This document shows, one piece after another, positions 21-36,213 of a stretch of 36,909 bases of DNA. This DNA is from a virus: positions 1 through 36,909 of the IMG/VR virus record IMGVR_UViG_3300047471_000694; one strand, 5' to 3'. Each line of letters begins with the position of its first letter. The first letter of the stretch is position 1. The notes beneath the pieces are model-generated. The model had not been told where the DNA came from. It did no database searches and worked only from the letters and a program-made list of their open reading frames with translations. Made by a program: the position numbers and the translations under genes.

Positions 21-96
21 TACTTCGTTATTTAGCATGTGTTCTATATCCCTGTCCACTTCATTATTTTAACTTGTTTCCTTACTTCATTTTAGT
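21..96. repeat. Three imperfect ACTTCATTATTTTA direct repeats in an AT-rich leader
   Basis: Three related words occur in the same direction at 21-34, 58-71 and 83-95, with consensus ACTTC(A/G)TTATTTTAG; the last copy lacks a few bases. The surrounding 1-225 stretch is AT-rich compared with the rest of the window and holds no convincing gene. Short repeated words in an AT-rich block can be protein-binding iterons of an origin or an operator, but nothing here shows which. The third copy runs into one of the dispersed AACTAAAA words (reverse orientation, 90-97). Confidence 0.45.
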
Positions 97-189
97 TTCT
101 CGTTTGATCCACTTTCTTGAGGGGTTGAGCCATTCTCCCTTGGGGTGTGGTTGCGCAGGGCGATATGTGCCACGCATATCTAAACTATA

Positions 190-215
190 CGCAGCATATA
201 TATAACATCTATATT
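190..215 (-). promoter_or_regulatory. AT-rich element shared with the 5.91-kb element
   Basis: Read on the minus strand, this stretch contains TGTTATATATATGC followed by a TATAG word. The same 14 bases occur perfectly on the plus strand at 5910-5923, again followed by TATATAGG. Such TATATA words are scarce elsewhere in this GC-rich sequence. It lies just after the stop of the leftward gene at 226-522, so it could be a leftward promoter for something beyond the window edge or a shared binding site. The promoter role is inference. Confidence 0.35.
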
Positions 216-225
216 TTTAGTTTGC

Positions 226-522
226 CTAGTTCGGCTTTTCCTCGGCCGCAGCTTGCGCCAGATCGGAAACCTCGCGGGCCTTCGCGCCGTCCTCGCGCAG
301 CGCCATAATCGCACCGACCGGCTGGCGCGGATCCGTTTGGACGATGTGATTCGAGGCCAGGATCAACCGGCCAGGGCGTATCTCCGTACCGCCGCGATGA
401 TTGACGCCCGTCACCAGGCCCCCATCCTCCAGCTCCACCACGCGACACTGGATCACAGGCCGCTCCAGTTGCAACACCACCAGGTCGCCGACTCTCAGCT
501 CATTGCCGATCGCATCCCGCAT
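226..522 (-). CDS. Small KOW/SH3-like phage protein, unknown function
   Basis: A 98-residue leftward gene. The start is supported by a GGAGGG ribosome-binding site about 8 bases before the ATG at 522. The N-terminal half (NELRVGDLVVLQL, then an R/E-rich strand and GGLVTGVN) has the spacing of a small beta-barrel of the KOW/SH3 type, with a helical Ala/Glu-rich tail (residues about 70-98). Small proteins of this look are frequent in phage accessory regions, and I do not recognise a named family. It is the distal leftward gene after the DUF1376 protein, separated by 279 bases that carry an inverted repeat (550-565), which suggests its own regulated promoter. Start and frame are well supported; function is not. 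Confidence 0.7.
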   Translation of the reverse strand: MRDAIGNELRVGDLVVLQLERPVIQCRVVELEDGGLVTGVNHRGGTEIRPGRLILASNHIVQTDPRQPVGAIMALREDGAKAREVSDLAQAAAEEKPN

Positions 523-801
523 TTCATTCCCTCCAGTTTTCTACTACCGCTATACTCACGTATAGCGCTTTCGTCTAACGTTCGCCCACTGGTTTATATA
601 TTACTCATGCCGCGCATATTCCCCACATATACGCCGCCAATCTAAAACATATAGTTTTTATAGATTTTTAGATGATCTTGCGACCCGCGCCGCGTGAAAT
701 GGCGAGCGAAGCACCCTACCAGATTTGCGCATATCTCAACATGGCTTACCTGGCGCAGCGTCGAGTGACCTTGTTCGTCGCCATACTTCAGTTTCTCCCT
801 T
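523..801. other. Intergenic region between the two leftward genes
   Basis: No convincing gene is seen here; open frames lack ribosome-binding sites and protein-like composition. Besides the element at 550-597 it holds the inverted repeat AAAAC-ATATA-GTTTT at 644-658 and a run of TATA-rich words around 594-665. On the minus strand, GGCGTATATGTGGGGA (rc of about 618-633) resembles the GGCGTATATGGGGA found on the plus strand at 24032-24045. These are candidate promoter or operator sites only. Confidence 0.4.
550..597. promoter_or_regulatory. Operator-like inverted repeat and copy A of a ~50-bp repeated control element
   Basis: CTATAC at 550-555 and GTATAG at 560-565 form a perfect 6-bp inverted repeat around TCAC, upstream of the leftward gene at 226-522. 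On the minus strand a TATAGC word overlaps it and could be a -10 box with a weak TTAGAC box 18 bases upstream. The stretch 551-597 (TATACTCACG, then TTTCG, TTCGCCC and a T-rich end) aligns with 1510-1560 and 2855-2905, giving three copies of one layout. The operator role is inferred from position and symmetry. Confidence 0.5.
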
Positions 802-2837: not shown

Positions 2838-2854
2838 AAAATTTATACTCCCGC

Positions 2855-2915: not shown

Positions 2916-2961
2916 CACGCTGGAGGCACGTTTCTAAGCGTCCTTGAAGGAGGACTCGACA

Positions 2962-4247: not shown

Positions 4248-5905
4248 TGGACGACAGCATCGACGTGGCGCGGATCCCGGCCGATGAGGACTATCGCCAG
4301 GAGCTGCGCTGGCGAATGCAGACCGATCTTTTCTGGCTGGCGAAATTTGTACTCGGGTACAACAAGATCACCGAAGAGTGGCACCGGCCGGTTGCCGATG
4401 TATTCGTAAAAAAGGATCCCGGCAAGCCATTCGCGCAGCAGACCCGCAAGCGCCGGCGCATCCTGCTGCTGCCGCGCAAAACCTATAAAACTAGTTTGTC
4501 TATCTGCGACACCGTGCAATGGGTGATCGGCTTTCCCGACATTGCCATTATGGTAATGACGGCTTCCAATTCTCCCGACTCGCCCCTGGCCGATGCGTTC
4601 GTGGCCGAAGTGGCGAGTCATTTCTATTGCCCCGAAGGCACGCCGAAAAACCCGCTGCATCTGTGTTTCCCCGAGCACGTTTTGATCAAGATGGACAAGG
4701 CCGGCCAATTCACCACGCCGGCGCGCACCCGGTTTCGCCGCGACCCCACGGTGAAGGGCGTCTCGATCGAGCAGAGCTTGAGCGGCTGGCATCCCGACAT
4801 AATCAAGGGCGAGGATGTGCAGGACAACAGAAATTCGCAAACTAGTTTCGGGCTGCGCAAAGTAAGGAAGAATTTTTACTTGAATCTAAAAATGCTCGGC
4901 GAAGATGGCCTGGTGGATCTGACCGCCACGCGCTACGGGCCGGCGGATCTGTACGGCGACATGATCGCCAAGGCCGGCGAGGAAACAATTCTCTTGTGGA
5001 AGCCGGCTTATTTCCGCCGCGAGCACGCATTAAAGCTGGACGACGACGAATTGAACGAGCAGGACGTGATTTTACAGTTCCCCGAGCAGATTTCCTGGGC
5101 CTTCCTGCGCAATGAGAAGGCGCTCGACCCGGAAAGTTTCTGGACGCAGTACATGAACGTGGCCGAGGGCGCTTTTGTGCCGACCTTCGCGGCGGAAAAG
5201 CTGGAGCGCGCCAAAGTTACCGAGGAACACGCCCCCGCCGAGGATCAGACGCATATCTGCTGGCGCCTGGAGTATGCCGAATCGAAGCACGCCGCCTGTG
5301 CGGTGGGGATCGAGCGCGGCGGGCGCATGACGATTGTGGAAGTGGCACGCGGGCAGTTCACCCCCACCACGCTGGCCTGGCGCATTGTGGACACCTGCAA
5401 GCGATGGGAAGTGCGCCGCGTCGAAATCGAGGACACGCCCGGCGCGCGCAGCATGATTCCCCACATTCGCAACGAGGCTCTCGATGCCGACTGGCGAGTG
5501 GATATTGCCTGGACCGAGTTTCTACAGGATGAAACCGCGCGCTCGCTGGCCATCAAGGCCGCGGAGCCGCATCTCGCGACCGGCCGGCTGCTGTTTGCCG
5601 ACAAGCTGCCCTTGTGGCAGGAAATCTTTCGCCAGCTCTACCAGTTCGGCATGGTGGAGGAATTCGACCTGGCCAGCGTGATCAGCAGAGTAGCGGCGAA
5701 GCTGCCGGCGTCGATCGCGGCCGAGGGCTTCGAGGCCCAGGACGAGGAACAGTTTCGCGCCTACATCGAGCAGGACGCCTACGATCGCGTGTATAACCGC
5801 GGGCGCTACCACGAGGCCGAGCCGGTGGCCGAACCGGAACAGGAATGGGCGCCGGCCGAGCCCGGCGACGGGCTGGGGGAATGTATGCCGGGGCTTAGCG
5901 GTTGA
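4247..5905 (+). CDS. terL: Terminase large subunit
   Basis: A 552-residue packaging motor protein that cuts and translocates DNA into the head. The start is ATG 4247, overlapping the previous stop and preceded by GAGGAA; a TTG at 4244 is in the same frame. The ATPase half has a non-classical Walker A, LLLPRKTYKTSLS at about 73-85 with K/R early as usual in terminases, and an acidic segment DIIKGED near 184-190. The C-terminal half from about 345 has the RNase H-like nuclease layout: a beta strand GIERGGRMTIVEV, then VEIEDTPGARSM. The first catalytic Asp position is unclear; it reads RLEYAES where an Asp is usual. Two palindromes AAACTAGTTT lie in the gene (4488-4497, 4839-4848). Confidence 0.9.
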   Translation: MDDSIDVARIPADEDYRQELRWRMQTDLFWLAKFVLGYNKITEEWHRPVADVFVKKDPGKPFAQQTRKRRRILLLPRKTYKTSLSICDTVQWVIGFPDIAIMVMTASNSPDSPLADAFVAEVASHFYCPEGTPKNPLHLCFPEHVLIKMDKAGQFTTPARTRFRRDPTVKGVSIEQSLSGWHPDIIKGEDVQDNRNSQTSFGLRKVRKNFYLNLKMLGEDGLVDLTATRYGPADLYGDMIAKAGEETILLWKPAYFRREHALKLDDDELNEQDVILQFPEQISWAFLRNEKALDPESFWTQYMNVAEGAFVPTFAAEKLERAKVTEEHAPAEDQTHICWRLEYAESKHAACAVGIERGGRMTIVEVARGQFTPTTLAWRIVDTCKRWEVRRVEIEDTPGARSMIPHIRNEALDADWRVDIAWTEFLQDETARSLAIKAAEPHLATGRLLFADKLPLWQEIFRQLYQFGMVEEFDLASVISRVAAKLPASIAAEGFEAQDEEQFRAYIEQDAYDRVYNRGRYHEAEPVAEPEQEWAPAEPGDGLGECMPGLSG

Positions 5906-6486: not shown

Positions 6487-8627
6487 GCTTACTTTCTGAA
6501 ATGGTGAACGGCTCGAACCTGATTCAGCCGGGCGACGTTGAACTACAGGCGCCGGGCCTCGATCCGAAGTACACCGATGACGCCGCCGTGCAGCTCACCA
6601 TTCAGGATGCGCAGAAGGCGCGCACCTACCTCGATCAGAAGCAATGGAATTTGCACTGGCGCGAGAGCGATGTGCTCTACCAGAGCCCGCGAACCAATCA
6701 ATCCTTCGAGGGCTCGACGGTGGCGCGCGCGAACATTTCACGCTTCACCGTGGCCAAGCACGTCAACAGCCTGGTGCCGGGAATGAAGAGCGGCATTTTT
6801 TACGAGATGCCGCCGTTCCTGATTCGCCCGCGGCCGTCCACTTCGCAGACCACGGCGCGCGCCAAAGTGGCCCTCTATGGCGCGCTGTTCGATGAATGCA
6901 ACTTCGAGGATGTGAGCGAGCGGTCGCTGGAGGACATGACGACATTCGGGACCGTGATCGTAAAGGGCGGCTGGCGCAAGGAAACTAAAATTCGTAAATT
7001 GCGATCGCCGAAAGCGTCACCCGTCAAGTTCAAGCTGCCGATGGGCGGCGAGCTGACCGTGCACACCCGCGAGAGCGATGAGATTGTCGTCACGCCTACG
7101 GAAGTGACCGAAGAGGGGCTGACGTGCGAGACGTGCGAGCTGGGGTCTATTTTGGTGGATCCGACCTGGAAAGACGCCAACGCCTTGCACACCGGGGCGA
7201 AGTATGTTGTCCATGTTTCCTATCCCACGTTCAAAGACCTCGACAAGCTGCGCGAGGAAGTGATCTACGACGAGGACGGAAACCAGGTCGGGGGTTACGA
7301 CATTCCCGGCGAGGAAGAACTAAAGTTTTACTTTTTCGGCCATGAGGGCAACGCCGGCGCGCCGTCCCAGGTCCAGCTCAACCTGGGCGGGCAAAACTGG
7401 TCGATCCACCACGCGCAGAACGAAGATGAACCGGCCAGCGCGGATCCGCTGGAACGGCCGATTCAGTTGTTTGAACGCTGGGACAGGTCGAACGTCTATG
7501 CGGTTTTAGTTCCCGAGGGCGGGGACCGCGGCGTGCTGATTCGCAAAGAAGAACATGACTTGCCGTTTATTCCGTTCTTCGCGGCGAACTTCTGGAACAT
7601 TCCCAAAGCCGGGTTCGGGATCGGCGTAGGGCGCCTGGCGGGATCCGACCAGAGAATCGAAAAGGGGCTCACCGACGCGCTGCTCGACATTCTGAGCATG
7701 ACGGTGAATCCCATGTACGCACGCGATCGCGGGGCCAACGCGCCCACGCAGCAGATACGCCAGCGCCTCGGCGGCATCGTGGACGTGGACACCAAGCCCG
7801 GCCAGGGCGTGCGCGATGCGTTCGGCATGATCGAACTGCCCAAGGCGCCGCCCGAGGCGTTCACCATGCTCCAGGCCGCGGCACAGAGCGCGCAGTCGAC
7901 CACCGGGGCCGATGAGGCGTTTACGCAGGGCAACCTGCCCTCGCGCGGCACCAGCTCGGCGGCGCGCACGGCCACCGGCGCCGGCGGCATCATCGCAGCC
8001 AACGCGGGGAAAATTCAAGGCCCGGTGGGGCATTTTGTCAAAGGCATACTCCTGCCCATGATCCAGCTCACCGAGCATTTTGTGAAATCGCGCATGAGCC
8101 TGGCCAAGATCCGCGAAATTCTCGGCCAGGAACTCGGCGACGCCTTCGAGCTGGACGCGCAGAATTTCTACCAGTCGAATGACCGCTTCGAGTGCCTGGC
8201 GGGCGCGCATTTAGCCGCCAAAAAAGCGATGGCGCAAGCCCTGCCTATGCTGGTGCAGATTTTTGAGAATGCGCCCATCATCCAGCAGCTCAACGCGACC
8301 GGCTGGATGATCGACATTCGCGTGATGCTCGAAATGTTTATGGAAGTGAGCGAGTGGAAAGACGCCCGCGAGCTGATCCGCCGCATGACGCCCCAGGAGC
8401 AGCAGAGCTTCCAGCAGTCCAATCCCGGCCAGCAAAAGGTCCAGGCACAGGTGGCCGCGATCGGCGCGCGCCACGAAGCCAAGACGGCGGAAATCGACCA
8501 GCAGAACGAAGCCAAGCTGGCTACGCAGATGATCGGGAAAGCCAACGACGAGGCCGCGCTGTGGGATGAGCGCAAATGGAGCCGGCACGCGATCGAGCAG
8601 AGCGTGTATGCGCCGGCAGGGGGTTAA
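6483..8627 (+). CDS. Portal protein
   Basis: A 714-residue protein that forms the head-tail connector ring and DNA entry channel. The start is ATG 6483: GGAGG lies about 8 bases upstream and ATGA overlaps the previous stop, while the same frame extends upstream without support. Portal features are a long N-terminal helical region with WRESDVLYQSP, a beta-rich wing (VHVSYPTFKDLDK to WDRSNVYAV), a clip and stem region with GVGRLAGSDQRIEKGLTD, and a Gln/Ala-rich helical crown (about 630-714). Size and position between terminase and scaffold support the call. The family is that of large podovirus portals. Confidence 0.88.
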   Translation: MSLLSEMVNGSNLIQPGDVELQAPGLDPKYTDDAAVQLTIQDAQKARTYLDQKQWNLHWRESDVLYQSPRTNQSFEGSTVARANISRFTVAKHVNSLVPGMKSGIFYEMPPFLIRPRPSTSQTTARAKVALYGALFDECNFEDVSERSLEDMTTFGTVIVKGGWRKETKIRKLRSPKASPVKFKLPMGGELTVHTRESDEIVVTPTEVTEEGLTCETCELGSILVDPTWKDANALHTGAKYVVHVSYPTFKDLDKLREEVIYDEDGNQVGGYDIPGEEELKFYFFGHEGNAGAPSQVQLNLGGQNWSIHHAQNEDEPASADPLERPIQLFERWDRSNVYAVLVPEGGDRGVLIRKEEHDLPFIPFFAANFWNIPKAGFGIGVGRLAGSDQRIEKGLTDALLDILSMTVNPMYARDRGANAPTQQIRQRLGGIVDVDTKPGQGVRDAFGMIELPKAPPEAFTMLQAAAQSAQSTTGADEAFTQGNLPSRGTSSAARTATGAGGIIAANAGKIQGPVGHFVKGILLPMIQLTEHFVKSRMSLAKIREILGQELGDAFELDAQNFYQSNDRFECLAGAHLAAKKAMAQALPMLVQIFENAPIIQQLNATGWMIDIRVMLEMFMEVSEWKDARELIRRMTPQEQQSFQQSNPGQQKVQAQVAAIGARHEAKTAEIDQQNEAKLATQMIGKANDEAALWDERKWSRHAIEQSVYAPAGG

Positions 8628-8870
8628 ATGACTACCGGAGCGACCCAGCACTACACCAAGAACACGGTGGAAGTTTCGGCCTGGTGCAACAGGTGCGGCT
8701 GGCCTACGATGCACCGCGTACTCGGCGGGAAGCTGGCGGCGTGCCTGGTGTGCGCGTCGGTACCGGAAACTAAAACCGCACGGCCGCGGGCGCTGAAACC
8801 GGAAGCGCCGGCGCAGGGAGATTTATTCGGAGGAACCGGGAATGCCAGTCCAGATCGACGCAGAAACTAA
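8628..8870 (+). CDS. Small zinc-finger phage protein
   Basis: An 80-residue protein whose ATG follows the portal stop with no gap. CNRCGWPTMH at about 20-29 and CLVC at about 39-42 make a CxxC-T-H-CxxC zinc ribbon of a type widespread in phages. The C-terminal half is Pro/Ala-rich and ends in QGDLFGG. An AACTAAAA word (8768-8775) is encoded as part of ETKT. Function is unknown; nucleic-acid or protein binding is possible. Confidence 0.7.
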   Translation: MTTGATQHYTKNTVEVSAWCNRCGWPTMHRVLGGKLAACLVCASVPETKTARPRALKPEAPAQGDLFGGTGNASPDRRRN

Positions 8871-11663: not shown

Positions 11664-12113
11664 ATGCCTAAAGAAAAACTCGATGCCGACTCGATCGAAC
11701 TGCAATGGAAGCAAATGCAGATCGAGGAAATGCAGGAGAAGATGGCCGACCGGCTGGAGCGCCGCGAGCGCCTGGCAGCATCGCGCCGGCAGCAGTTGAC
11801 CGACTTTGAAAAGGCCCAGGAAGAGCGCGCGCGCCGGCAGCGGGTGTGCAAGCACCGCAAGGGCGGGCGCAACAACAACTTCGCCAACGGCGACAGCAAC
11901 GCCTACTCCGTGATCCGCAATATCTACCCCACCGGCCGCGAAGTGATCATGTGTACGCGCTGCGGCAAGGAAGTGGAGAGGCCGGCTCTCGGGCTGCGCA
12001 AGAGCGATGCCGACCTCTACGCGAAGATGCGCGAAGAGTGGAATCGCTGGAACGAATTCCCCACCGACAACAGCCCCAGCGGCGGCAAGATTTTTGAGAT
12101 TGTGGCCGCATGA
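11664..12113 (+). CDS. Coiled-coil protein with zinc knuckle
   Basis: A 149-residue protein; GAGGGGAAG precedes ATG 11664. Residues 5-60 are a charged coiled coil (IELQWKQMQIEEMQEK, RLERRERLAASRRQQLTDF), then VCKHRKGG near 62-69 and CTRCGKE near 97-103 can form a C-H-C-C zinc site, followed by a helical end. The next gene starts with ATGA overlap. Position between capsid and adaptor suggests a minor head component, but I recognise no family. Confidence 0.65.
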   Translation: MPKEKLDADSIELQWKQMQIEEMQEKMADRLERRERLAASRRQQLTDFEKAQEERARRQRVCKHRKGGRNNNFANGDSNAYSVIRNIYPTGREVIMCTRCGKEVERPALGLRKSDADLYAKMREEWNRWNEFPTDNSPSGGKIFEIVAA

Positions 12114-12586
12114 CGACCAAGAAAAAGAAACCCGCGCCGGCGCGCACTAAAGCGAAAACTAAAAGCCGGCCCACGCCCGCGGCCAAGGCCGCGACGAAAG
12201 CGAGGAAAAAGTCCATGACGGAAAAACACGAAAAAAGCAAGAGCAGCAGGAGCGCGCACGCTTCTACTTTCAGCACGCCCGAAACCGTCGCGCTCAACAT
12301 GGCGATGAACGATTCCACCGACAGCATCGTGGCCCTGGTGGACGCATCGACCACGGCCACCGTGGGAAGCAATCTGCAAATCGACACGGAATATATGGCC
12401 GTGACCGACGCGAGCGACTTGAGCAATTTGCAAGTGACGCGCGCGGCCGGCGGATCCACCGCCGCGGCGCATGACGTGGGCGCGCCGGTGACGATCGGCG
12501 TAGAGCTGCCCGAGGCGCCGGCAGTGCCGGATCTGCCCGAGGGTCTGAGCCCCAATCAAAAGGTAAGCGCGGTTAGAGGATTTTAG
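12110..12586 (+). CDS. Lys-rich head protein with a virion-type beta module
   Basis: A 158-residue protein coupled to the previous gene by ATGA. Residues 1-55 are extremely Lys/Ala/Ser-rich, resembling a DNA-contacting or disordered tail. Residues about 70-125 follow a module common in phage structural proteins: DSTDSIVALVDAS, then LQIDTEYMAVT, LSNLQVTRAAGGSTAA, H-D-V-G-APV. A virion role is likely; which part of the virion is not shown. One AACTAAAA word (12157-12164) lies in the Lys-rich part and another, reversed, spans the stop (12581-12588). Confidence 0.65.
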   Translation: MTTKKKKPAPARTKAKTKSRPTPAAKAATKARKKSMTEKHEKSKSSRSAHASTFSTPETVALNMAMNDSTDSIVALVDASTTATVGSNLQIDTEYMAVTDASDLSNLQVTRAAGGSTAAAHDVGAPVTIGVELPEAPAVPDLPEGLSPNQKVSAVRGF

Positions 12587-13596: not shown

Positions 13597-13962
13597 GTGG
13601 AGACACAGAACGCGATCAAGTGGCTGAAAACTTCCGGCCTGGCGGCGGTGGGCGGCGGAATTGCGGGGGCCTTCGCGGCGGCGATGGATCCCACCAAATA
13701 CCATTTCCCGCACGACATTGGATCGGGGAAGCTCTGGAAGTTTTTTTTCATGGGCGCGGGGCTCACGTTCGGCAGCTTGCTATTGCGCTCGCCGCTGGGA
13801 CAACAGGCCATGAGCGCGTACAGGGATTCGCAGCAGCAAGCCGCGGAGGATAAGGCGGCGATCGAAAAACTAAAAGGCGAGCTGCGCCAGGGAGGTTCCG
13901 ACGATGCCGGCAAAGCTGGAACGCAAACTAAAACGGGAAGCAAAGAAAAAGGGCCTGGGTAA
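13597..13962 (+). CDS. Two-helix membrane protein, holin candidate
   Basis: A 121-residue protein starting at GTG 13597, 3 bases after the previous stop. Two hydrophobic segments, SGLAAVGGGIAGAFAAAM at about 13-30 and FFFMGAGLTFGSLLL near 50-64, are followed by a charged helical tail ending in Lys/Gly/Thr-rich residues. That is compatible with a class II holin or another small membrane protein. It is not next to the hydrolase gene (25218), so the lysis role is uncertain. Its 3' end overlaps the small basic gene at 13904. AACTAAAA words occur at 13868 and 13926. Confidence 0.6.
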   Translation: METQNAIKWLKTSGLAAVGGGIAGAFAAAMDPTKYHFPHDIGSGKLWKFFFMGAGLTFGSLLLRSPLGQQAMSAYRDSQQQAAEDKAAIEKLKGELRQGGSDDAGKAGTQTKTGSKEKGPG

Positions 13963-14150: not shown

Positions 14151-14335
14151 AACGCAGCCACGAGTGTAACCAGATGGCCGCGCAGCTCGGACTAAGCGAG
14201 CATCAAATGCGGCGAATCGGACTGGAACATTTCAAGGCCATGAAGGACGACGCGCGAGCGTACATGCTGAATCTGGCGCACAAGAAAGGCCGGTATAAGA
14301 TTGGCGTCCACGATAACCATTCAGGCGACTGCTAA
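14120..14335 (+). CDS. Small helical protein, unknown function
   Basis: A 71-residue protein read from ATG 14120, with GAGGAAAA about 5 bases upstream. The same frame is open back to GTG 14051, but that codon overlaps the ribosome-binding site of the 14058 frame and is unlikely. The protein is charged and helical (EEKQKVKRSHECNQM, LGLSEHQMRRIGLEHFK, AYMLNLAHKKGRYKIG). Its end overlaps the next gene start by 35 bases. I recognise no family. It sits in the recombined segment between two adaptor and tail genes. Confidence 0.55.
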   Translation: MEAQEEKQKVKRSHECNQMAAQLGLSEHQMRRIGLEHFKAMKDDARAYMLNLAHKKGRYKIGVHDNHSGDC

Positions 14336-14999
14336 CTGGACGAAAGCATTCCTCGAACAGCAGCCCCTTGAAATAAACGGAATGGAGCCGGCGATCAGCT
14401 CTGCCACCCTGATACTCCAGACCATTCTCGGGCCTCCGTTCGCCTGGCCATTCAATCGCGGATTTTTTAGTTTCGCCACCACTGACCAGGATTACGCCCT
14501 GGCCCTGGCCGACTTCGGATTTCTGGAAGGCGGCACGGTGCAGCCGGATTCCGGTAAAGGCTTCGAGCTGATGGTGCGCAACGTTCTCCAGGCCGAGCAG
14601 CAACAGGCGCGCGGAATGTACATCGCGCCGTTGATCGACGACGGCGCCGGAAATATAACTTTTAGATTGTCGCCGGCGCCGGATGGGTCTTGCTTGGTGA
14701 CCGGCATCTACCAGAAAAAAGCTCCGATCATCTACAGCCTGGCGCAGACCTGGACGCCGATTCCCGATGAAAAAAATTACGTCTGCCAGTGGGGCTTTCT
14801 GGCGCTCATGTCATTAATCGGCAATGATGCGCGCTTCAATGAGTACAACACCAAATTCATAACCGGCTTGCTGGGACAGCAGGGCGGGCTTACCGACCTG
14901 GAAAGAAATATTTTCCTGTCTAACTGGACGCGGGTTATGGGGCAGCTGCAAGGCACGCAGCTGGCCACCGCGGAACGCTACAAGGCGAGGGAGGTCTGA
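14301..14999 (+). CDS. Structural protein between adaptor and nozzle
   Basis: A 232-residue protein starting at TTG 14301, inside the end of the previous gene; the upstream site is weak (AAAGG). It opens MASTITIQATANW and has WPFNRGFFSF, a beta-rich middle (ITFRLSPAPDGSCLVTGIYQ) and a helical end with GLLGQQGGLTDLERN. I recall phage structural proteins with this opening but no assigned role. Position between adaptor and nozzle suggests a head completion or tail tubular component. Its stop overlaps the next ATG (TGATG). A degenerate copy of its first 13 codons lies at 14058. Confidence 0.6.
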   Translation: MASTITIQATANWTKAFLEQQPLEINGMEPAISSATLILQTILGPPFAWPFNRGFFSFATTDQDYALALADFGFLEGGTVQPDSGKGFELMVRNVLQAEQQQARGMYIAPLIDDGAGNITFRLSPAPDGSCLVTGIYQKKAPIIYSLAQTWTPIPDEKNYVCQWGFLALMSLIGNDARFNEYNTKFITGLLGQQGGLTDLERNIFLSNWTRVMGQLQGTQLATAERYKAREV

Positions 15000-21547: not shown

Positions 21548-23851
21548 ATGCCGACTAACTACACCATCGAGGACGCGCCGAAATACACGGTGGAGGATGC
21601 GCCCGCCACGCCGCCGGTAACACCACCAGCAGCGACCCCGGCGCCGAATGGCGGGGGCCTGGGCGCGTGGACCGATAAAAATCTAAAAGGCGAGGGGGAT
21701 TCCGGCTGGGAATCTCCGGAACTGGGCGGGATGCTGGCCGGCGCCGTAAAGAGCGGAGGCCAGGTTGTCGGCAACATTTTAGATTTCTTTGCCAAGCCTC
21801 ACCCGATAGACCCCAACGCGCCGCCCGAACAATTGACGTCGCGCCAGGCGAAGTTTCACCAGCATTTACAAGACGCGGCAAACTGGCTGCGCCAGGGATC
21901 GGAGCCGCAAGGCTTTTGGGAGAACGTAGGCGCCACCGGCGAACAGGTGCTCGAATACATCGGCACCGATGGGCTGCTCAAGATGGTAGGCCCCGGCGTG
22001 AAAGTGGCCGCGGCCGGCGGGCGCGCCGTGGAAACGGCCGAGGAACTAAAACAGGCGCAACAGGTGGCCACCACCCTAAGTAAAAATCCCAAGATCGCGG
22101 GCCTCGTGGCCATCGGACTAAAAGCAAGTAAAGACGCCGCGCTGATGGCGGGGCAGACTTACGCGCATACCGAGGATCCGCGCCAGGCTGCGATCGCCGG
22201 CGTGGCCGGCGGCACGCTGGGCGCCGCGGCCGGCGGGCTGGAGGCCGGCGGGCGCTACCTGATGCGCAATGCGCCTAAGACCCTCGATGTGGCGGGCGAA
22301 AAAATCTCTGTCATGGCCAAGCAGCTCAACAAAGCCGGTAAGGCCGTAGAAGGCGGCGCCGGCGAAGCGCCCGAAATGGCGGCAGAGCAACAGCAGGGCG
22401 CAAAGAATGTCATTCGCAACCTGGCGCAACAGGCCACGCGCGGCGTGCTGGAAAAAGTAAACGCGACCCGGCCCATGATCGCGCCGATGGAGGGAAGCGG
22501 GCGGTTATTGGAAGCGCCGGCCGGCGCCGAGCCGTTCACGTTCACACTGGAAACCACGCCGGCCAATGTAGGCACTACCGGCGAGATTGCGCAATCGGCG
22601 GCGAAAGTTCCAGGGCGGGCGGCTTTCAAAGAGCCGCAATATACGAGCGCCAGCGCGCCGTCGAGAGGGGCAACCCGCCCCGGTGGACCTCACCTTGAGG
22701 GCCAGATGGGCGAGGGCATTCGCGCCGCCGAAGGCCAAACAGGCGCGGATATAAGAACCGCGGGCGCGCCCGAGGGCCAGGCCGATGTGGCCAGCGGCGG
22801 CGGGACGTTGCAAACGACCGATCCACACGAGGCCGAGAGCTGGCTATCGCAGCTCGAAGATTTGCAGGAAAGCCCCATACACGAGAAGTTGAGCGCGGCC
22901 GACCAGGCGCGCGTCGAGGCCCAGCGCCAGGCCCTCGAAGAACAGCTCGGCGTATATCATGCTTCGCCCTACGCGAAACGCTTCGACCCGCTCGACAGCC
23001 AGGCCGCGGCCGGCCAGGTGCGCACGTTCGGCGATGCGGCAAGGCAGATCCAGGCCGCGGTAAAGCCGGTGTATGAAACGCTTGATCGCGCCAGCGGCGG
23101 GCAGTTCAACAAGTGGAACAATGCCGCCAAGCAAGCGCAAAAGATCATGCGCAGCGCGACCACGCTGGACGCGGCCGACGCCGCCGAGGCGCGCCTGGCC
23201 GAAGCCAACCGCAACATTGACGAGCTGCTGACCCGGCACGCCGGCGACGTGTCGCGCACCGACTATATGGCCGCACGCGAAGCATGGAAGGCCAGCTCGC
23301 GGCTAGGCGAATTACATTCCGTTTTCGAGCGAATGATGAACGGAGTCACCACCGAGGAAACCGACCGGGGGCTGACGCAGGTTATGACCGGGCGCACAAA
23401 GTCGCTGCAAAACTATCTAGCCAAGGGCGAAAACCTCGACCAGATCGAGAAGCTGATCGGCAGGGAAGGCGTGACCAATCTAAAACAGATCACGCTTTTA
23501 CTTTCCAAGGCCAACACCGCGCGGCAGACGATCGGCGTAGCTAAGGAAGTAGGGCAGGAAGTCGCGCGCCACCTGGGACGCGCCGGCGTGGGCTCGCTGA
23601 TCGGCTCGATCGCTGGCAAGATGCTGGGCGTGGCCGCGTATCCCGCGACCCTGGCCGGCGCGATGGCAGGGGAAGGCGCGCGCTATGTACTGCGCTATGC
23701 GGCTACCAATCCACGCGTGGGAAACATGGTGGAATACGCCGTGCGCAACGGCATCAGTCCCAAGGTTTACGCGCCGCTGATTGCGCGCGCGATCGCCGAG
23801 CCTTTCCAGCAACCGCAGCAGCCCGAGGCCGCGGCCGAGGGAACGCAGTAA
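21548..23851 (+). CDS. Very large internal virion protein with membrane-like C-terminus
   Basis: A 767-residue protein starting directly after the previous TAA. It opens with two copies of YTIEDAP/YTVEDAP, a short repeat. The middle is Ala/Glu-rich helix with low complexity, and residues about 690-740 (VGSLIGSIAGKMLGVAAYPATLAGAMAGEGARYVL) are Gly/Ala-rich and hydrophobic, as in proteins that insert into the host envelope during DNA ejection. No enzyme motif is recognisable. Two AACTAAAA-type words lie close together at 22044 and 22116. Function is inferred from size, order and composition. Confidence 0.6.
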   Translation: MPTNYTIEDAPKYTVEDAPATPPVTPPAATPAPNGGGLGAWTDKNLKGEGDSGWESPELGGMLAGAVKSGGQVVGNILDFFAKPHPIDPNAPPEQLTSRQAKFHQHLQDAANWLRQGSEPQGFWENVGATGEQVLEYIGTDGLLKMVGPGVKVAAAGGRAVETAEELKQAQQVATTLSKNPKIAGLVAIGLKASKDAALMAGQTYAHTEDPRQAAIAGVAGGTLGAAAGGLEAGGRYLMRNAPKTLDVAGEKISVMAKQLNKAGKAVEGGAGEAPEMAAEQQQGAKNVIRNLAQQATRGVLEKVNATRPMIAPMEGSGRLLEAPAGAEPFTFTLETTPANVGTTGEIAQSAAKVPGRAAFKEPQYTSASAPSRGATRPGGPHLEGQMGEGIRAAEGQTGADIRTAGAPEGQADVASGGGTLQTTDPHEAESWLSQLEDLQESPIHEKLSAADQARVEAQRQALEEQLGVYHASPYAKRFDPLDSQAAAGQVRTFGDAARQIQAAVKPVYETLDRASGGQFNKWNNAAKQAQKIMRSATTLDAADAAEARLAEANRNIDELLTRHAGDVSRTDYMAAREAWKASSRLGELHSVFERMMNGVTTEETDRGLTQVMTGRTKSLQNYLAKGENLDQIEKLIGREGVTNLKQITLLLSKANTARQTIGVAKEVGQEVARHLGRAGVGSLIGSIAGKMLGVAAYPATLAGAMAGEGARYVLRYAATNPRVGNMVEYAVRNGISPKVYAPLIARAIAEPFQQPQQPEAAAEGTQ

Positions 23852-25648: not shown

Positions 25649-26224
25649 ATGGCGACGACACCGCAAATTCATTTGACGGCCAACCTCGAAAGCATCATCG
25701 CCGGCGGGGAGACGCCCGGCTATCTCCAGGTGACGCTTTGCGGCTACGGCCCGGTGCTGCCCTGTGTGCCTGGCACGGGAATGCTGGCCGACGCCGGCGT
25801 GCCGCAGCTCATCGGCCCGCAAGTGGGATCCACGCCGCTCGAAGTGGACCTCTACGGTAACGATGTGATCCAGCCGTTGAATCAGACCTTCTACGCCGTG
25901 GCCGTCCTGGACAGAAAGAAGAATGTCATTCAGTCGGGGATCTATCAGTTCACCGGCAGCGGCACGCAGGACCTGGCCAATGCCGGCCAGGTGCTACCGC
26001 CCTTCAATCTGGGTTTCGTCATCACGACGATGCGGTACATGAGCTGCAACGCGCCGCCGCGACTGCCCAACAATGTTTTCACCGCGCCCGGCGCCCCGGT
26101 TCTCGCAGTGGCCTATAACGGCGTTTTTTTAGGCCCCGACTACTACACCATCGACGGTGCGCAAATCAATCTGACGTTCACAACGGAACTGGGGGATAGG
26201 ATAGATGCTTTCTGCATTGTATAA
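25649..26224 (+). CDS. Fibre-associated structural protein
   Basis: A 191-residue protein from ATG 25649 (GAGAGG about 7 bases upstream). It is beta-rich, with IHLTANLESIIAGGETPGYL, the neck VDLYGNDVIQPLNQTFYAV, and VIQSGIYQFTGSG in the middle, then a linker and YNGVFLGPDYYTIDG at the end, a pattern I associate with phage tail-fibre adaptor proteins. Its last 20 bases overlap the start of the spike gene in another frame. It probably joins the spike to the tail. Family membership is from memory only. Confidence 0.6.
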   Translation: MATTPQIHLTANLESIIAGGETPGYLQVTLCGYGPVLPCVPGTGMLADAGVPQLIGPQVGSTPLEVDLYGNDVIQPLNQTFYAVAVLDRKKNVIQSGIYQFTGSGTQDLANAGQVLPPFNLGFVITTMRYMSCNAPPRLPNNVFTAPGAPVLAVAYNGVFLGPDYYTIDGAQINLTFTTELGDRIDAFCIV

Positions 26225-29200
26225 ACTGCCATTCGCGCTTCTGCTGATCGCCGCCGCCGCCTACTGCCAGGGACCGCCGCCGCAGATAGTCAATCCCCAC
26301 ACGCAGATTCGCTGGCCGGGATTATGCGTCACGCCGGGGATGGTCTACACGTTTCAAGACAATACTTGCGTAGACGTGATGCACATCGACCCCAGCCGCG
26401 TCACCTGGCCCACGAGCTGCGCCACCGGCACGTATGTTCCGGCTACCAATACCTGCGTGGCAACCGGCACGGCCGCGAATCCTGGCGGGGGCGCTCCGCA
26501 AATGCAGTTCAACGCGGGAGGAACTTTCGGCGGCGATTCCGTGGTCGTCATGGACACCACCGGCAGCACGACTACGCCCGTGCATACCTTAATGGGTAAC
26601 CTCAACGGAGATATAAACCCGTACAACTACGGGGCGCGGGGGGATAACGGCGCGACAGACGATACGGCAGCGATCACCGCAGCTTGCAATGCTGCCAAGT
26701 CGTATTCTCCCCCCGCAAAAGTCGCCTTTCCTAAAGCGTCGGGCTACTACCTGACCGGACCTCTAGATGCTTGCGCTGGCGTGAGTCTGACGGGGAAACC
26801 AGCCAATTTCGGCAGCGCCACGGCTGGCGGGGGGGTGCAGTTGCGCGGCAAGCCGGGGATGGACGTGCTGCACTGGCACGATCCCAATACAGCGACTGGT
26901 ACGGCTCCCGCCAGATCCTGGGAAATCTCCGACATGAATATCGTGGTGGACAATTCGGTCGACGCTTCAAGCACCGGAACGAACGCCTATCCGCATCGCT
27001 GGCCGGGACGCTGGACGCAGGACGGATCAAACGCAGCGACCATCACCCAGATTGGCATCGCATCGAACGTGCTCACAGTCATGGCATCGAACGCTTTTAC
27101 GATTGGACAGACAGTGACGCTTTCGGGGGTGACGACCAACACATTCTTGAACGCTCAAGCAGTGGTCGTTACATTCGCCAGTGCCACGCAATTTACGGCC
27201 GCATTCACCCATGCGAATGTGACTCTCGCGGCAGACACAGGAACTGCGGCATTGCCTCTGACGATACTTACATCGAACAGGCAGTTGTGGCAGTGCAGCG
27301 ACATAGGATCGGCTATCAAGGTAGTGGGCGCTGGCGCGGCGGGGGCTGATCTAATCACCACCATCGCGTCCATGCCAGCCTGCGGAACCGCGCAGAACAC
27401 TATTACGCTGGCTGCTGCCGCCTCTGTTCCCGTGATCAATGCGCTGGTCTACACGTCTGTTCCCGGCGTTTCCGCCACCCAGACCATGGGTAACTGCGCC
27501 ATAGGTGCCGACAACTCCGATGGCGATACGACTCACTGGGCCAGCGGTTGGACGGGTGGGATGATTCCCTCCTATCCCTCCATCCGCAATGTGAACATCA
27601 ACTCCACGTCAGGCAATGCGGCCAACAATACGTGCGGGATCTTTTTTCAGGGCATCTGGCAACCATACGGAATCCACGCCGAAACGGTGAACGTTCAGCG
27701 TTTGCAGTATGGCGTTGTGCAAGCATGTCCAGATATTGCCCCTCAATCGGGGATCTGCGGAGAAGATCAGCAGTGGTGGATACACGTACTGGTGAATGCC
27801 ACTTATCCCTGGATCTCCTATGGAGGCGGCTACAACCATCTGGCGGGATGGCAACTGTCGTCGAACTCGACAGGCGCCGGTCCCTTCATTCTGGAAGTGG
27901 GCATCAGCAATGGAAGTGCTGTTACCTGGGACATTCACGTTCCCGAGTGGGAACTCGCCAGCATCGGATGGATTGTCAGAGGAACAGGTCATAACCTCCA
28001 CGGCAGTCAGATTGTCGCCGCCGGGACGCGATCCTATTTCGACACATCGAGCGCCACTTGCGACCCCTGCTACGCCAGGGCCACGTATCCGACCGGCTCA
28101 GGACTGACGATCAATGGTTACGGCAATACTTTCAGTTTCAAAAACTCCACTGCTGGGTTGCTGGGGCTGCGCTCATCAGGCAGGGCCGATATAGACGGTC
28201 TGCTGGGTACAGGTGTGCTGCAAGATAATGGTGTGAACAACACAATAACTGTGAACCAACTTGACAGTCCCGGCCTGGGAGGCCAGCCAGGGCAGACTAC
28301 GGCTGTCAACATTTCCCGCGATCTCGGTTTTGCCTTAAGTCGTTCTGCGGAATTTGCAGTGGGAAATGCCGCTACTCCCTACTACAACCGGCAGGATCTG
28401 CTGTTCTTTCCCAAAGACTACATGTTTAATCCCGCCCAACCAATCGTTGCTGACTCTAACTCGTATAGCGGATTCTATGTTGCGCGTACTGTAAACGACG
28501 CTACACGGGGATTCACCACATTTAAGGCTGATCCGCTGCAAGCTGTGGGCAACGGACAGGCGAGAATCTGCAACATCCCTGCGGGGTGCCAGGTTCCTGC
28601 ATCGGTGGTCACGGTATACGAGAGCGCCAAATGCCCGGTGCAGACTTCTTACACATTCAATGTGCAAGCTAATCTGGGCAGCACTGTTGCGAGTGCGACG
28701 TTTCCCTGCACCACGACTTACACCACCAACTCTATCGTGGTCGATCTCTCAACCCAGAACGGCAAGAATCTGGGGTTCAGTTGGAGCGGAGTCACCAACG
28801 AAGTGGATGATGCGTGGATTGCTGTGGTGCCGTATTCGGTTTCATCCACTGGCGCCCCAAATACAGTCCCCAAAACCAAGCCGGGAAGCAGCACTCTCGA
28901 TCCCTCCTGGATTCCCGGCGTGGGCAATGCCATGCAGCGCGTGGCGCAAGTTGCTCCGACTCTCGACACCACCGGGGCCAACATTAACAACATCATCCTG
29001 TACACGACTCCCGCGGCCGGGAACTACATGCTCTGCGGCTACCTGGATATGGTGGTCGCGGCATCGGCCGGGACTTATTCGATGTCAGGCAACTACGTTA
29101 GCGACGGGCATACGTTTGCCGTCATCATCACCGCCTCGGTTGGGCCAGCGCAGTGGTCAGTGTCGAGCGGCGTCTCTCCCACGACCGGCTCGCCTTGCCA

Positions 29201-29306
29201 AAACTTCTATGCCGACGCCGGCACCAACATCACTGCCAAAATTACCGCCACCGGCATCACCGGCAGTCCCACGCTTCGCTATGTCGCCAGCCTCTGGCAG
29301 TTGTAA
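26205..29306 (+). CDS. Large pectate-lyase-like tailspike with a signal-peptide-like start
   Basis: A 1033-residue protein. Residues 1-20 (MLSALYKLPFALLLIAAAAY) look like a Sec signal peptide or membrane anchor, which is unusual for a phage spike. Residues 24-110 contain Cys-rich repeats (LCVTPGMVYT, NTCV, YVPATNTCV) and GAPQMQFNAGGTFGG, a phage virion linker type. NYGARGDNGATDDT near 140-153 is the start of a pectate-lyase-3 beta-helix, with repeats to about 800, followed by a C-terminal domain ending in SLWQL. The spike would bind and perhaps digest host surface polysaccharide. No catalytic residues can be placed by eye. It is the last gene before a strong terminator. Confidence 0.8.
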   Translation: MLSALYKLPFALLLIAAAAYCQGPPPQIVNPHTQIRWPGLCVTPGMVYTFQDNTCVDVMHIDPSRVTWPTSCATGTYVPATNTCVATGTAANPGGGAPQMQFNAGGTFGGDSVVVMDTTGSTTTPVHTLMGNLNGDINPYNYGARGDNGATDDTAAITAACNAAKSYSPPAKVAFPKASGYYLTGPLDACAGVSLTGKPANFGSATAGGGVQLRGKPGMDVLHWHDPNTATGTAPARSWEISDMNIVVDNSVDASSTGTNAYPHRWPGRWTQDGSNAATITQIGIASNVLTVMASNAFTIGQTVTLSGVTTNTFLNAQAVVVTFASATQFTAAFTHANVTLAADTGTAALPLTILTSNRQLWQCSDIGSAIKVVGAGAAGADLITTIASMPACGTAQNTITLAAAASVPVINALVYTSVPGVSATQTMGNCAIGADNSDGDTTHWASGWTGGMIPSYPSIRNVNINSTSGNAANNTCGIFFQGIWQPYGIHAETVNVQRLQYGVVQACPDIAPQSGICGEDQQWWIHVLVNATYPWISYGGGYNHLAGWQLSSNSTGAGPFILEVGISNGSAVTWDIHVPEWELASIGWIVRGTGHNLHGSQIVAAGTRSYFDTSSATCDPCYARATYPTGSGLTINGYGNTFSFKNSTAGLLGLRSSGRADIDGLLGTGVLQDNGVNNTITVNQLDSPGLGGQPGQTTAVNISRDLGFALSRSAEFAVGNAATPYYNRQDLLFFPKDYMFNPAQPIVADSNSYSGFYVARTVNDATRGFTTFKADPLQAVGNGQARICNIPAGCQVPASVVTVYESAKCPVQTSYTFNVQANLGSTVASATFPCTTTYTTNSIVVDLSTQNGKNLGFSWSGVTNEVDDAWIAVVPYSVSSTGAPNTVPKTKPGSSTLDPSWIPGVGNAMQRVAQVAPTLDTTGANINNIILYTTPAAGNYMLCGYLDMVVAASAGTYSMSGNYVSDGHTFAVIITASVGPAQWSVSSGVSPTTGSPCQNFYADAGTNITAKITATGITGSPTLRYVASLWQL

Positions 29307-32160: not shown

Positions 32161-32897
32161 GCCTTGTAGGCCCGGCGCCGGGCATTCCCTGCGCGCTTTG
32201 CGAGGGGCTGGGGATTATCCGAACTGAAAAGGGGTCCCGGCCGTGCATATGCCAAGGCGAAGCAAAAGCGAAACTGAGGCTGAATCGAGCCCTCATCCCC
32301 GGCCATTTTCAAGCCGCGACCCTGGCCGGCTTTGAGCCCGCGGCCGGCACCAGGGCGGCGCTGATGATGGCGCGGCGCATGGTGGAGGAATTTGTGCCAG
32401 GTAATAAAATAACCGGCCTTCTGCTCACCGGCCCGATCGGCACGGGGAAAACCCACCTGGCGGTGGGGATGCTGCGGGCGCTGGTGGAAGAGAAGGGGAT
32501 CGAAGGGCGCTTCGTGGACATGCGCGAGCTGTTCGACCGGCTGCGATCGAGCTATGACGACAACGCCCGCGAGAGCCAGGCGCAGATCCTGGGGCCGATC
32601 CTGGGCGCCGACCTGGTGGTGATTGACGAGCTGGGGGCGGCGCGGCCGAGCGACTGGGTGTTTGAAACCTGCGAGCTGCTGATTGGCGGGCTCTACAACC
32701 GAGAGATGCCGGTGATTGTGACCACCAACCACGCCATGACGGCGGAACGGCCGCGGGGCGCGGACAACGAATATGCCCGCGCGGCCCGGCCCGAGACGCT
32801 GGGCGACCGCATCGGGGCCAGGATGTTTTCGCGCTTGCAGCAGATGTGCACGGTGGTGGAAGTGAACGGGCCGGATTGGAGAGCGAGAAAGCGATGA
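32154..32897 (+). CDS. DnaC-like helicase loader ATPase
   Basis: A 247-residue AAA+ ATPase of the DnaC/IstB type that loads replicative helicase. GTG 32154 is chosen because GGAG lies 8 bases upstream; the frame is open back to 32079 with another ATG at 32121. An N-terminal zinc knuckle (CALC at 13-16 and CIC at 31-33) precedes Walker A GPIGTGKT at 93-100 and Walker B LVVIDEL at 154-160, with VIVTTNHAM as sensor 1 and GDRIGARMFSR as the sensor 2/arginine region. With the DUF1376 protein it would recruit the host DnaB. The next gene is ATGA-coupled. Confidence 0.85.
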   Translation: MLSLVGPAPGIPCALCEGLGIIRTEKGSRPCICQGEAKAKLRLNRALIPGHFQAATLAGFEPAAGTRAALMMARRMVEEFVPGNKITGLLLTGPIGTGKTHLAVGMLRALVEEKGIEGRFVDMRELFDRLRSSYDDNARESQAQILGPILGADLVVIDELGAARPSDWVFETCELLIGGLYNREMPVIVTTNHAMTAERPRGADNEYARAARPETLGDRIGARMFSRLQQMCTVVEVNGPDWRARKR

Positions 32898-33130
32898 GCC
32901 TGAACTATGAAACCTTCTGCGCCGGGCTGGGGGCGGCGATCCGCGCGCGCCGGCTGGGCGCGGGACTGACCCAGGAGCAGCTGGCCGTGAAAGTGGGCCT
33001 CCACCGCAACAGCGTGAACCGCTACGAGCACGGCGACGACATGCCCATCATGGCCTTTGTGCGCATGTGCGTGGCGCTGGGAACGCACGCCGGCGACGTG
33101 CTGGACGAAGTGATGAACGGAGGGAAGTAG
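32894..33130 (+). CDS. XRE-family helix-turn-helix regulator
   Basis: A 78-residue Cro/CI-type DNA-binding protein, ATGA-coupled to the loader gene. The helix-turn-helix covers about residues 25-45: GLTQEQLAVKVGLHRNSVNR, then YEHGDDMPIMAFVRMCVALG. It has no additional domain, so it is Cro-like in size. It is the best candidate in the window for binding some of the TACTC or inverted-repeat sites, but no sequence evidence links it to a particular one. The TAG stop overlaps the next GTG start. Confidence 0.8.
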   Translation: MSLNYETFCAGLGAAIRARRLGAGLTQEQLAVKVGLHRNSVNRYEHGDDMPIMAFVRMCVALGTHAGDVLDEVMNGGK

Positions 33131-34109: not shown

Positions 34110-34155
34110 TTTTGAAAATCCTTTCTCTCGTCGAATCCCGATAGACCGAGCATGA

Positions 34156-34172
34156 CCACCGCGGGCCGGTGG
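34156..34172 (-). other. Short hairpin between leftward genes
   Basis: CCACCG (34156-34161) and CGGTGG (34167-34172) pair around CGGGC, just downstream of the leftward virion protein gene. There is no T tract on either side, so it is not a clear terminator; it could slow or process the transcript before the small genes. Confidence 0.35.
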
Positions 34173-34183
34173 ACTAAAAAACT

Positions 34184-34912
34184 TTATGCCTTAGTAATTT
34201 CGACGGTCAGATTGCGCGCCCAAATATCGAGCGGCCCGTGGAGCACGTCGATCTGAAAATTGGGCTGGGCGCCCCACCATCCGGCGTGGGCCTCCAGGGT
34301 GATGGGCGGGAATGCCAGGTTGACAATATTCTTGACGCCGTTCATGACGATCGAGTGATAGGTGAAGAACTGGTTTTCATCTACGTCGATATGCAGGGCG
34401 AAGCTGTTCCAGTCGCCGGCGCGGGGCTGACCGTGAACGCCGCACGGCTCCCATTGATTTTTACCGTTGGTAATGTCCCACTCATACGGGTCTGAGCCCT
34501 CGCCGTTAAGCTGCGTCCAGCGGAAATGATGCGCGCCGGGGATATAGGTCGTATCTAAAAACAAACTAAAATCCAGCTCCACCGAGCCGACATTTGCGGC
34601 CTTGTCCAGCGGGATATACCACTCCCCGCTGTAAATAATCTCGCGGATGGCCGGCAGAGTTGTGCGGTCGGAATCATCGCCCAGGATGCCGAGGTTGTTG
34701 CTGCATAACGCCAGGCTGAAAAGGGCGCACGAGGCGCGATCCGTCTCGATGTGATATTTCGTGCAGAAGCCAGTGTCGATCGGCGAGACGACGCCCACAT
34801 CATAGCTCGCCGTGATGCCCTTGTAGGGCGACGGCCGCGTGGCCCAGCCCTCTTCTGCCAGTTGAATGCTGCAACTCCACAGGGGGCTTGTTTCCATGCG
34901 CTCGATGATCAT
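34184..34912 (-). CDS. Beta-rich accessory virion protein, lectin-like
   Basis: A 242-residue leftward gene. ATG 34912 is chosen for AAGGA about 8 bases upstream; the frame extends further up against the next gene without support. The protein is nearly all beta (SCSIQLAEEGWATRP, YDVGVVSPIDTGF, VELDFSLFLDTTYIP, FFTYHSIVMNGVKNIVN, WARNLTVEI) with aromatic residues, like a concanavalin/jelly-roll glycan-binding or lyase fold. It follows the spike gene by 14 bases, so both form one surface-recognition pair. No family can be named. A GAT TTT AGT TTG stretch contains an AACTAAAA word (34564). Confidence 0.6.
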   Translation of the reverse strand: MIIERMETSPLWSCSIQLAEEGWATRPSPYKGITASYDVGVVSPIDTGFCTKYHIETDRASCALFSLALCSNNLGILGDDSDRTTLPAIREIIYSGEWYIPLDKAANVGSVELDFSLFLDTTYIPGAHHFRWTQLNGEGSDPYEWDITNGKNQWEPCGVHGQPRAGDWNSFALHIDVDENQFFTYHSIVMNGVKNIVNLAFPPITLEAHAGWWGAQPNFQIDVLHGPLDIWARNLTVEITKA

Positions 34913-34926
34913 AGACAGATCCTTTT

Positions 34927-36213
34927 TTAGTTGAGATGGGGCATCAAGACTTGCGTCTCGGTGGCGTTGCCGTTGATGAAGTCGGCTTTGTTGGAACGGA
35001 ACGTGGATACGCCGATGACGGTGAACTTGGGCGCCTTGCCGGGCTGGCCATAGAGTTCTATCGCCGTGCCGCATTGCCGGAAATATCCGCCTAACCTGTT
35101 GCCCCAGGTGTCGCTGGAATTGTCGGACATGACCAGGATGCCATGACAGGATGCGTACTCGACCGGCCGGCCGGTGACGGGGGGAGGCCCGCCGGCGTTC
35201 TCATAATCGCCGTGCTGCAAATCATGCTGATGGCCATTGGCGACGACCAGGCCGAAGGCGTAAGAGTTCATGGCCACGTCCCACACGAACGTGTCGGAGT
35301 AGGGGCCGAAGTAGCCGGCGATCGAATCGGGGATGCCCTCGCCGTTCAAATAGCCGCTTAAAACTTTAATTCGGCTAGTTCCGGTGTACTTGGGCGATGT
35401 GCTGCCCGAGCTGGCGAAGAGAGCGCAGCCGCAGCGGCCGTTGAGCGACCATTCCTTGCCATACTGGGAAAAATCTGTCCCCGGATCGAGATGCACGCCT
35501 ACGCCGCCCCAGTTGATCGCATACTTTTTGCCGCTGCCGTTGGGTCCCTGGTAGTCGATGGCCAGGGTTAAAGACGTGGGCGAATCGACCGTGAGAATTT
35601 CGTAAGGGTAGCCGTCGATCACCAGCCAGCCGCAGGGCGTCATGCATTCGTCCCATTGGGTATTGGAGCCCGTGACCATGCTGGAGCCGGTATCGACCTT
35701 GACCGTGCCATCGTCGTAACGCCGCGGCACCAGGTATTGAAAGCCGATTTTTAGTTCCATGTTGGCGGTGGCGGTGAGCTTGACGGCCGAGCGGAGAACG
35801 TTGTTGCCGGCGCTGCGATCCTGGAATTGCAGATAGTCGAGCCGCGGCCCGTTCATGTTGGAATTCGTTTTGCTGCCGTTCCACCACAGAATCGCGTCGA
35901 TTTCCTGATCGGTGAACAGGACCACGGGCGAATTGCCCATGTTGGCCAGGTGGGCGTCGCCTACCAGCTTGACGTTTTTAGCGTTGGTTTCGACGGTGGA
36001 ATTGAAGCGGTACTGGCCGGGGGGGAAGTGCAGCTCGGAGCCGGCGGCGGCGTCGGAGTTGAGGAAGTCGCCGAGGGCCGGCGCGCAATCTTCCTGGCCC
36101 GAGGGGTCGAGGCCCAGGTCGGCGACCGCTTCGAGGCCGCGGGATCCGCCCGAACTGGCGGGAATAGAAACTGTGCCGGTGACGGGATTGATTTTCAGGG
36201 GATAGTCAGTCAT
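34927..36213 (-). CDS. Leftward tailspike-like beta-helix protein
   Basis: A 428-residue protein. The N-terminal 25 residues (MTDYPLKINPVTGTVSIPAS) suit a virion-anchoring segment; the rest has the stacked-strand rhythm of beta-helix spikes (ELHFPPGQYRFNSTVETNA, LVGDAHLANMGN, GVHLDPGTDFSQYGKEW, SCHGILVMSDNSSD). Residues about 170-245 contain GTVKVDTGSSMVTGSNTQW to SLTLAIDYQGPNGSGKK, a module often inserted in phage structural proteins. No ribosome-binding site is obvious before ATG 36213. A palindrome AAACT-TAT-AGTTT (36232-36244) lies upstream and could be its promoter or operator region. It probably gives a second host-range determinant beside the spike at 26205. Confidence 0.7.
   Translation of the reverse strand: MTDYPLKINPVTGTVSIPASSGGSRGLEAVADLGLDPSGQEDCAPALGDFLNSDAAAGSELHFPPGQYRFNSTVETNAKNVKLVGDAHLANMGNSPVVLFTDQEIDAILWWNGSKTNSNMNGPRLDYLQFQDRSAGNNVLRSAVKLTATANMELKIGFQYLVPRRYDDGTVKVDTGSSMVTGSNTQWDECMTPCGWLVIDGYPYEILTVDSPTSLTLAIDYQGPNGSGKKYAINWGGVGVHLDPGTDFSQYGKEWSLNGRCGCALFASSGSTSPKYTGTSRIKVLSGYLNGEGIPDSIAGYFGPYSDTFVWDVAMNSYAFGLVVANGHQHDLQHGDYENAGGPPPVTGRPVEYASCHGILVMSDNSSDTWGNRLGGYFRQCGTAIELYGQPGKAPKFTVIGVSTFRSNKADFINGNATETQVLMPHLN

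Follow-up and report, generated by a model that had tools for sequence, protein, structure and literature searches.

The window studied here, a 36.9 kb stretch of viral DNA taken as a whole (G000), contains the 8-bp word AACTAAAA at about 50 times its chance frequency, and the excess of this word in the window and in four scattered relatives (G010, G015, G016 and G021, which with the window make up the five carriers, all of them fragmentary contigs) suggests a genome-wide docking signal for one DNA-binding protein. AACTAAAA/TTTTAGTT occurs 20 times, 10 per strand, where Markov models of order 1, 2 and 3 predict 0.33, 0.37 and 1.1 copies for the two strands combined. Against the order-2 and order-3 models no other 8-mer of the window scores higher, and the highest-ranked 9-mer, AAACTAAAA, has 14 copies against 0.11 expected. 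A first-pass annotation of this DNA had reported a dispersed 8-bp word with about 19 copies; the word is real and every coordinate listed is exact, with one copy overlooked (7504, minus strand). Its figure of about 0.2 expected copies was based on an assumed GC content of 62%, where 60.4% is measured. Three shorter contigs (L014-L016), whose IMG names bear other metagenome numbers than that of the window, match it at 99.98-100% and contain the same copies wherever they overlap, which means that the excess is no assembly error.

A trivial origin of the word in base composition, codon habits or chance has to be considered, particularly as copies outside coding sequence coincide in several places with A-rich ribosome-binding spacers and TAA stops. 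Over 300 rounds in which synonymous codons were shuffled within genes and intergenic letters were shuffled as well, the mean was 0.40 coding copies (maximum 3) against 10 observed, and 2.3 copies in total (maximum 5) against 20. The codon shuffle and the count of 8-mers against a Markov background had both been proposed in the annotation; the former does not reproduce similar counts and the latter ranks AACTAAAA as the most over-represented word. Together with a specific substitution profile and about 45 relatives of similar GC content in which the word is at background, these nulls make such an origin scarcely credible, and we regard the synonymous shuffle and the relatives as having refuted it. 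The copies are dispersed across the window, with just a modest local concentration at 1-690 (Table 1): 10 lie wholly within genes, in several frames, five lie over stop codons and five are intergenic. The palindromic relatives of the word previously listed at four places are present as written.

Table 1. Copies of AACTAAAA and associated features in the window
Feature	Position	Strand	Context
Left-end regulatory stretch	1..690	.	rich in AACTAAAA and tolerated variants: 18-, 90-, 215-, 640+, 658-, 666-
AACTAAAA	90..97	-	intergenic
AACTAAAA	215..222	-	intergenic, left-end cluster
AATCTAAAACATATAGTTTTTATAGATTTTTAGAT	639-673		within left-end stretch 1..690
Palindromic relative AAAAC-ATATA-GTTTT	644		
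AACTAAAA	2832..2839	+	over TAA stop of RusA-like gene 2310-2837
Palindrome AAACTAGTTT	4488..4497	.	in terminase gene
Palindrome AAACTAGTTT	4839..4848	.	in terminase gene
AACTAAAA	6983..6990	+	in portal gene, E-T-K-I
AACTAAAA	7504..7511	-	in portal gene, V-L-V as GTT TTA GTT
AACTAAAA	8768..8775	+	in gene 8628-8870
AACTAAAA	8865..8872	+	over stop codon, then inverted half CTTATAG
AACTAAAA	12157..12164	+	in gene 12110-12586
AACTAAAA	12581..12588	-	over stop codon
AACTAAAA	13868..13875	+	in gene 13597-13962
AACTAAAA	13926..13933	+	in gene 13597-13962
AACTAAAA	14465..14472	-	in gene 14301-14999
Variant dyad AATCTAAAAGTTATAT	14653..14668	-	I-T-F-R as ATA ACT TTT AGA
AACTAAAA	22044..22051	+	in gene 21548-23851
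AACTAAAA	23883..23890	-	intergenic
AACTAAAA	23973..23980	-	intergenic
AACTAAAA	29317..29324	-	intergenic, directly past gene 26205-29306
AACTAAAA	30867..30874	+	over stop of SbcC-like ATPase gene, adjoins following ATG
Small XRE-type HTH protein	32846..33130	+	considered, rejected as reader
AACTAAAA	34564..34571	+	in leftward gene 34184-34921
AACTAAAA	34925..34932	-	over stop codon of leftward gene 34927-36213
AACTAAAA	35749..35756	-	in leftward gene 34927-36213
Dyad AAACTTATAGTTT	36232..36244	.	intergenic

A degenerate motif of roughly RRA[A/T][C/T]TA[A/T]AA has AACTAAAA as its core, and its inverted second half is weak. The five carriers pooled (121 kb) hold 60 exact copies against 1.24 expected, together with a clear excess of ATCTAAAA (20 against 1.7), AACTATAA (17 against 0.5), AATTAAAA (11 against 1.4), AAGTAAAA (8 against 1.5) and AACTAAAG (7 against 1.0), while most other single-letter variants stay close to the expected counts. 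Among word-poor relatives, 12 genomes (368 kb) have the word 7 times against 2.8 expected, with no comparable variant excess, and when 7-mers are compared between carriers and non-carriers, the top words are all part of this one motif. Positions -2 and -1 of the 60 exact copies prefer purines. TATAG or TTTAG lies within 18 bases downstream of the word 12 times and never upstream; only a minority of copies have this inverted half, which is weak, and the recognition site is asymmetric, with an RRAACTAAAA core. An exact dyad with fixed spacing was considered and rejected, as strict half-sites show no preferred spacing and there is only the loose downstream excess. Tolerance of specific substitutions is the pattern expected of a protein-binding site, from which we infer protein binding, and the presence of copies on both gene strands without an orientation bias (34 co-directional with transcription and 26 opposed across the five carriers, p = 0.37) argues against an RNA signal. 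Our literature search on the word itself found nothing relevant.

Comparison of homologous sites points in the same direction. The portal codons GTT TTA GTT at 7504 are identical in G000, G010, G016 and G021, where aligned word-poor relatives use other codons, and for synonymous codons shared among these four, the five-codon stretch around them ranks within the highest 0.7% of the gene. Similarly, the codons ATA ACT TTT AGA of the variant dyad at 14653-14668 are common to G000, G010 and G016 and are not found in aligned word-poor relatives; ATT TTA GTT at 13094 is common to G010, G015 and G016, the window being without the word there; and the word at 6983 recurs at the homologous place in G015, where neither the other carriers nor the word-poor relatives have it. 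The sites shared among carriers use TTA, ATA and AGA, and no aligned word-poor relative has the word at any of them. Given that the carriers are not a clade, these shared places come from repeated gain where the protein sequence permits the word, from retention, or from exchange between carriers, and all three routes imply selection on the DNA word. The earlier proposal of selection at the DNA level is thus upheld by the synonymous shuffle, by the occurrence on both strands and in several frames (the different reading frames having been claimed correctly), by the TF-like substitutions and by the codons shared by carriers only, and these lines combined make a protein mark the best reading.

The distribution of the motif is all-or-none and polyphyletic, patchy rather than one of gradual loss. 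Only five of about 50 related contigs carry the excess (log10 p of -33, -26, -25, -13 and -8). A tree of concatenated terminase, portal, capsid and tail protein puts the carriers on separate branches and rejects a single clade of the five (p-AU 1.5e-51), in a test that asks only whether the group, defined by the word itself, is a clade, and the carrier G021 is sister to the word-poor G001 with 100% support. The annotation had named conservation in related phages as a test of its own claim; most of them do not conserve the word, but its loss follows a patchy, all-or-none pattern and is not gradual. When dispersed A+T-rich words of any kind were screened for, one of comparable strength appeared only in the four longer carriers. 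The idea that each relative has a word of its own was rejected, since the longer non-carriers are without a comparable dispersed A+T-rich word, and the repeats that were conspicuous in them, TGCTTGGAGCA, TGCTTGAAGCA and GATCACTGAGCGATC, are clustered.

The window, an IMG/VR record, encodes terminase, portal, head and tail genes, a RusA-like resolvase, a DnaC-like helicase loader and an SbcC-like ATPase. Only one named phage is related to the window by terminase, Tunturiibacter phage Tunturi_3 (28% identity), a match which suggests an Acidobacteriota host. It is conceivable that the reader of the motif is a protein of the host (nucleoid, silencing or chromosome-maintenance), and that several phage lineages living in that host have each gathered sites, in which case the trait would track the host and not a gene of the phage. 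This rival is serious because the tetranucleotide signatures of the carriers are slightly more alike than chance (p = 0.046) and because no carrier-exclusive gene, and no exclusive reader gene, was found in the shared regions. Despite the polyphyly of the carriers, the nearest tetranucleotide neighbours of the window, with the motif masked, are the carriers G010 and G016; G010 and G021 share a metagenome number; and the motif includes AACTA, which is the word that the Bacillus silencer Rok prefers (PMC6212790). However, the composition signal is weak, with the non-carrier G005 nearly as similar, and Tunturi_3, a phage of Acidobacteriota, has no excess of the word (1 copy against 0.85 expected). 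Rok, a xenogeneic silencer, recognises AACTA, tolerates ATCTA and favours TpA steps (PMC6212790), all of which are echoed in our motif. Unlike in Rok targets, TACTA is not enriched here (1.0, with AACTA at 3.3-fold over expectation), an A-run is required after CTA, the phage genomes have a high GC content, and we identified no homologue of Rok. Rok-type silencing, considered for the AACTA preference, favours TACTA as well and disfavours A-runs, which is at odds with the unenriched TACTA and the AAAA end of the motif. Overall, we consider a host reader, the main rival, somewhat unlikely.

Several relatives of about 42-44 kb encode ParA and a neighbouring RHH-like protein, and some of them also a Rep3-type initiator or ArdC, so that the phage family probably persists as plasmids. 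In the relatives, the gene homologous to the first gene of the window is followed, within the leftward early operon, by the ParA/RHH module and, judging from this synteny, the window probably lacks about 6 kb at its left-end junction, which in relatives holds ParA, the RHH protein and sometimes Rep. This raises another explanation, in which the sites form a dispersed centromere bound by the RHH partner of ParA, the phage-plasmid is segregated through it, and the word varies with incompatibility type. RHH centromere proteins bind short A+T-rich boxes, the module would lie just past the left end of the window, and the beta-strand region of the RHH protein varies between relatives. The gene content also resembles type Ib plasmid partition, in having ParA with an RHH-like protein and in some cases a Rep3-type initiator. 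However, type Ib and other known RHH centromeres form compact clusters of repeats close to parA, whereas the word here is spread over the genome; the ParA-bearing relatives, none of which is a carrier, are without a comparably strong dispersed A+T-rich word; and the par region is found in none of the carrier contigs. We judge a dispersed centromere to be quite unlikely.

No integrase or classical immunity repressor was recognised among the scanned window proteins, and the carrier contigs, fragments as they all are, yielded no candidate for the reader gene. The annotation had offered the small XRE-type protein of the window as reader, which is unlikely given that the word-poor G003 and G005 have homologues with nearly the same recognition helix. 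At 34184-36213 the window has two leftward genes whose function we did not recognise, in the place where several relatives have replication and maintenance genes. Portal and terminase scans of 84,980 genomes, run to find prophages in cultured organisms, gave none, and no portal match was found in plasmids. The right-end sequence of the window is in no viral contig searched, a search through ParA or the helicase loader for a carrier par locus or right arm gave no new carrier, and a scan with the SbcC-like ATPase found no relatives.

We predict that the motif is the binding site of one DNA-binding protein, likely a phage-encoded regulator that silences or organises the prophage, and we give this reading an even chance. 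In such a scheme, one protein would read a core of about RRA[A/T][C/T]TA[A/T]AA, which is often joined by a poorly matching inverted half (TATAG/TTTAG) at a distance of some 11-14 bp; the phage keeps about 20 full and about 20 variant sites genome-wide. The reader would be the phage's own regulator, encoded in the roughly 6 kb missing from the window contig, and by binding many sites together it could silence or organise an extrachromosomal prophage. The sites would then define a type, of immunity or incompatibility, that may be exchanged between phages. It is from the behaviour of the trait as an exchangeable type that we infer encoding by the phage, and favour a regulator encoded in the missing part. 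Most likely the sites form a network of the stoperator-like or silencing kind, with a specificity that moves between phages. A bolder and more doubtful picture is that of an exchangeable genome-wide mark, in which some of these soil phage-plasmids would have dozens of orientation-free sites in and between genes, a protein would coat, silence or partition the genome through them, and the trait would be gained or lost wholesale between close relatives via synonymous changes.

The closest parallel, offered as an analogy and not as a claim of membership, is with the cluster A mycobacteriophages (L5, Bxb1 and TipsytheTRex) and their stoperator networks, where temperate genomes have 20-30 short asymmetric sites each, site types vary between related phages, and some prophages are kept by parABS and not by an integrase (PMC6550527; PMC9283540). 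The first-pass annotation had drawn the L5 analogy, and it stands as far as at least 20 copies of one short asymmetric site dispersed over a phage genome are concerned. It fails in that the sites here are not oriented with transcription and are not mostly in short intergenic gaps, half of the window copies being wholly genic. Further, the core here is about 10 bp, often with a weak inverted second half, most relatives are entirely without such a word, and no repressor was recognised in the incomplete contigs. Most documented networks of dispersed operators belong to cluster A mycobacteriophages and to a few related groups of actinobacterial phages. The present case concerns a phage family that is uncultured and apparently acidobacterial; the sites are non-oriented and occur inside genes, and their distribution across this well-sampled family is all-or-none. 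Its carriers and non-carriers form a natural comparison from which to learn how a phage comes by a genome-wide protein mark and what advantage the mark brings. RRAACTAAAA with a TATAG arm is a concrete bait for finding the protein, with AACCAAAA as the control form of AACTAAAA.

Other repeats were seen alongside the motif. Directly upstream of the leftward primosomal-type gene 802-1905, the window has the repeats TACGTGAGTA (four copies) and TTGTACTC/GAGTACAA at 1965-2012, and also at 553 and 2522; TTGTACTCACGTACTACTCACGTAATACTCCGAGTACAA looks like an operator or origin array. The palindromic TGCTTGGAGCA or TGCTTGAAGCA recur several times near early genes in G004, G006, G007, G018 and G021, mostly in one orientation, and G021 has palindromes of this type as well as the AACTAAAA motif. 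Local arrays are present in G017 (2297-2501, TCTGCTTAAAGCAG about every 49 bp) and in G011 (1587-1747, GATCACTGAGCGATC about every 11 bp). In G030 (L134), dyads of the GCATAGGTnnTACCTATGC type lie at 37830-37848 and 38824-38842, one directly upstream of parA and one about 1 kb off, with more elsewhere; these are probably operator or centromere sites of that phage-plasmid. A cluster of GTTAACTA/AACTACCC repeats in L144 (12620-12748), about 2 kb past a ParA gene, is likely a partition site. Finally, GAGCTCGAG and CTCGAGC are strongly over-represented across the whole record of G002, the latter with 89 copies against 12 expected.
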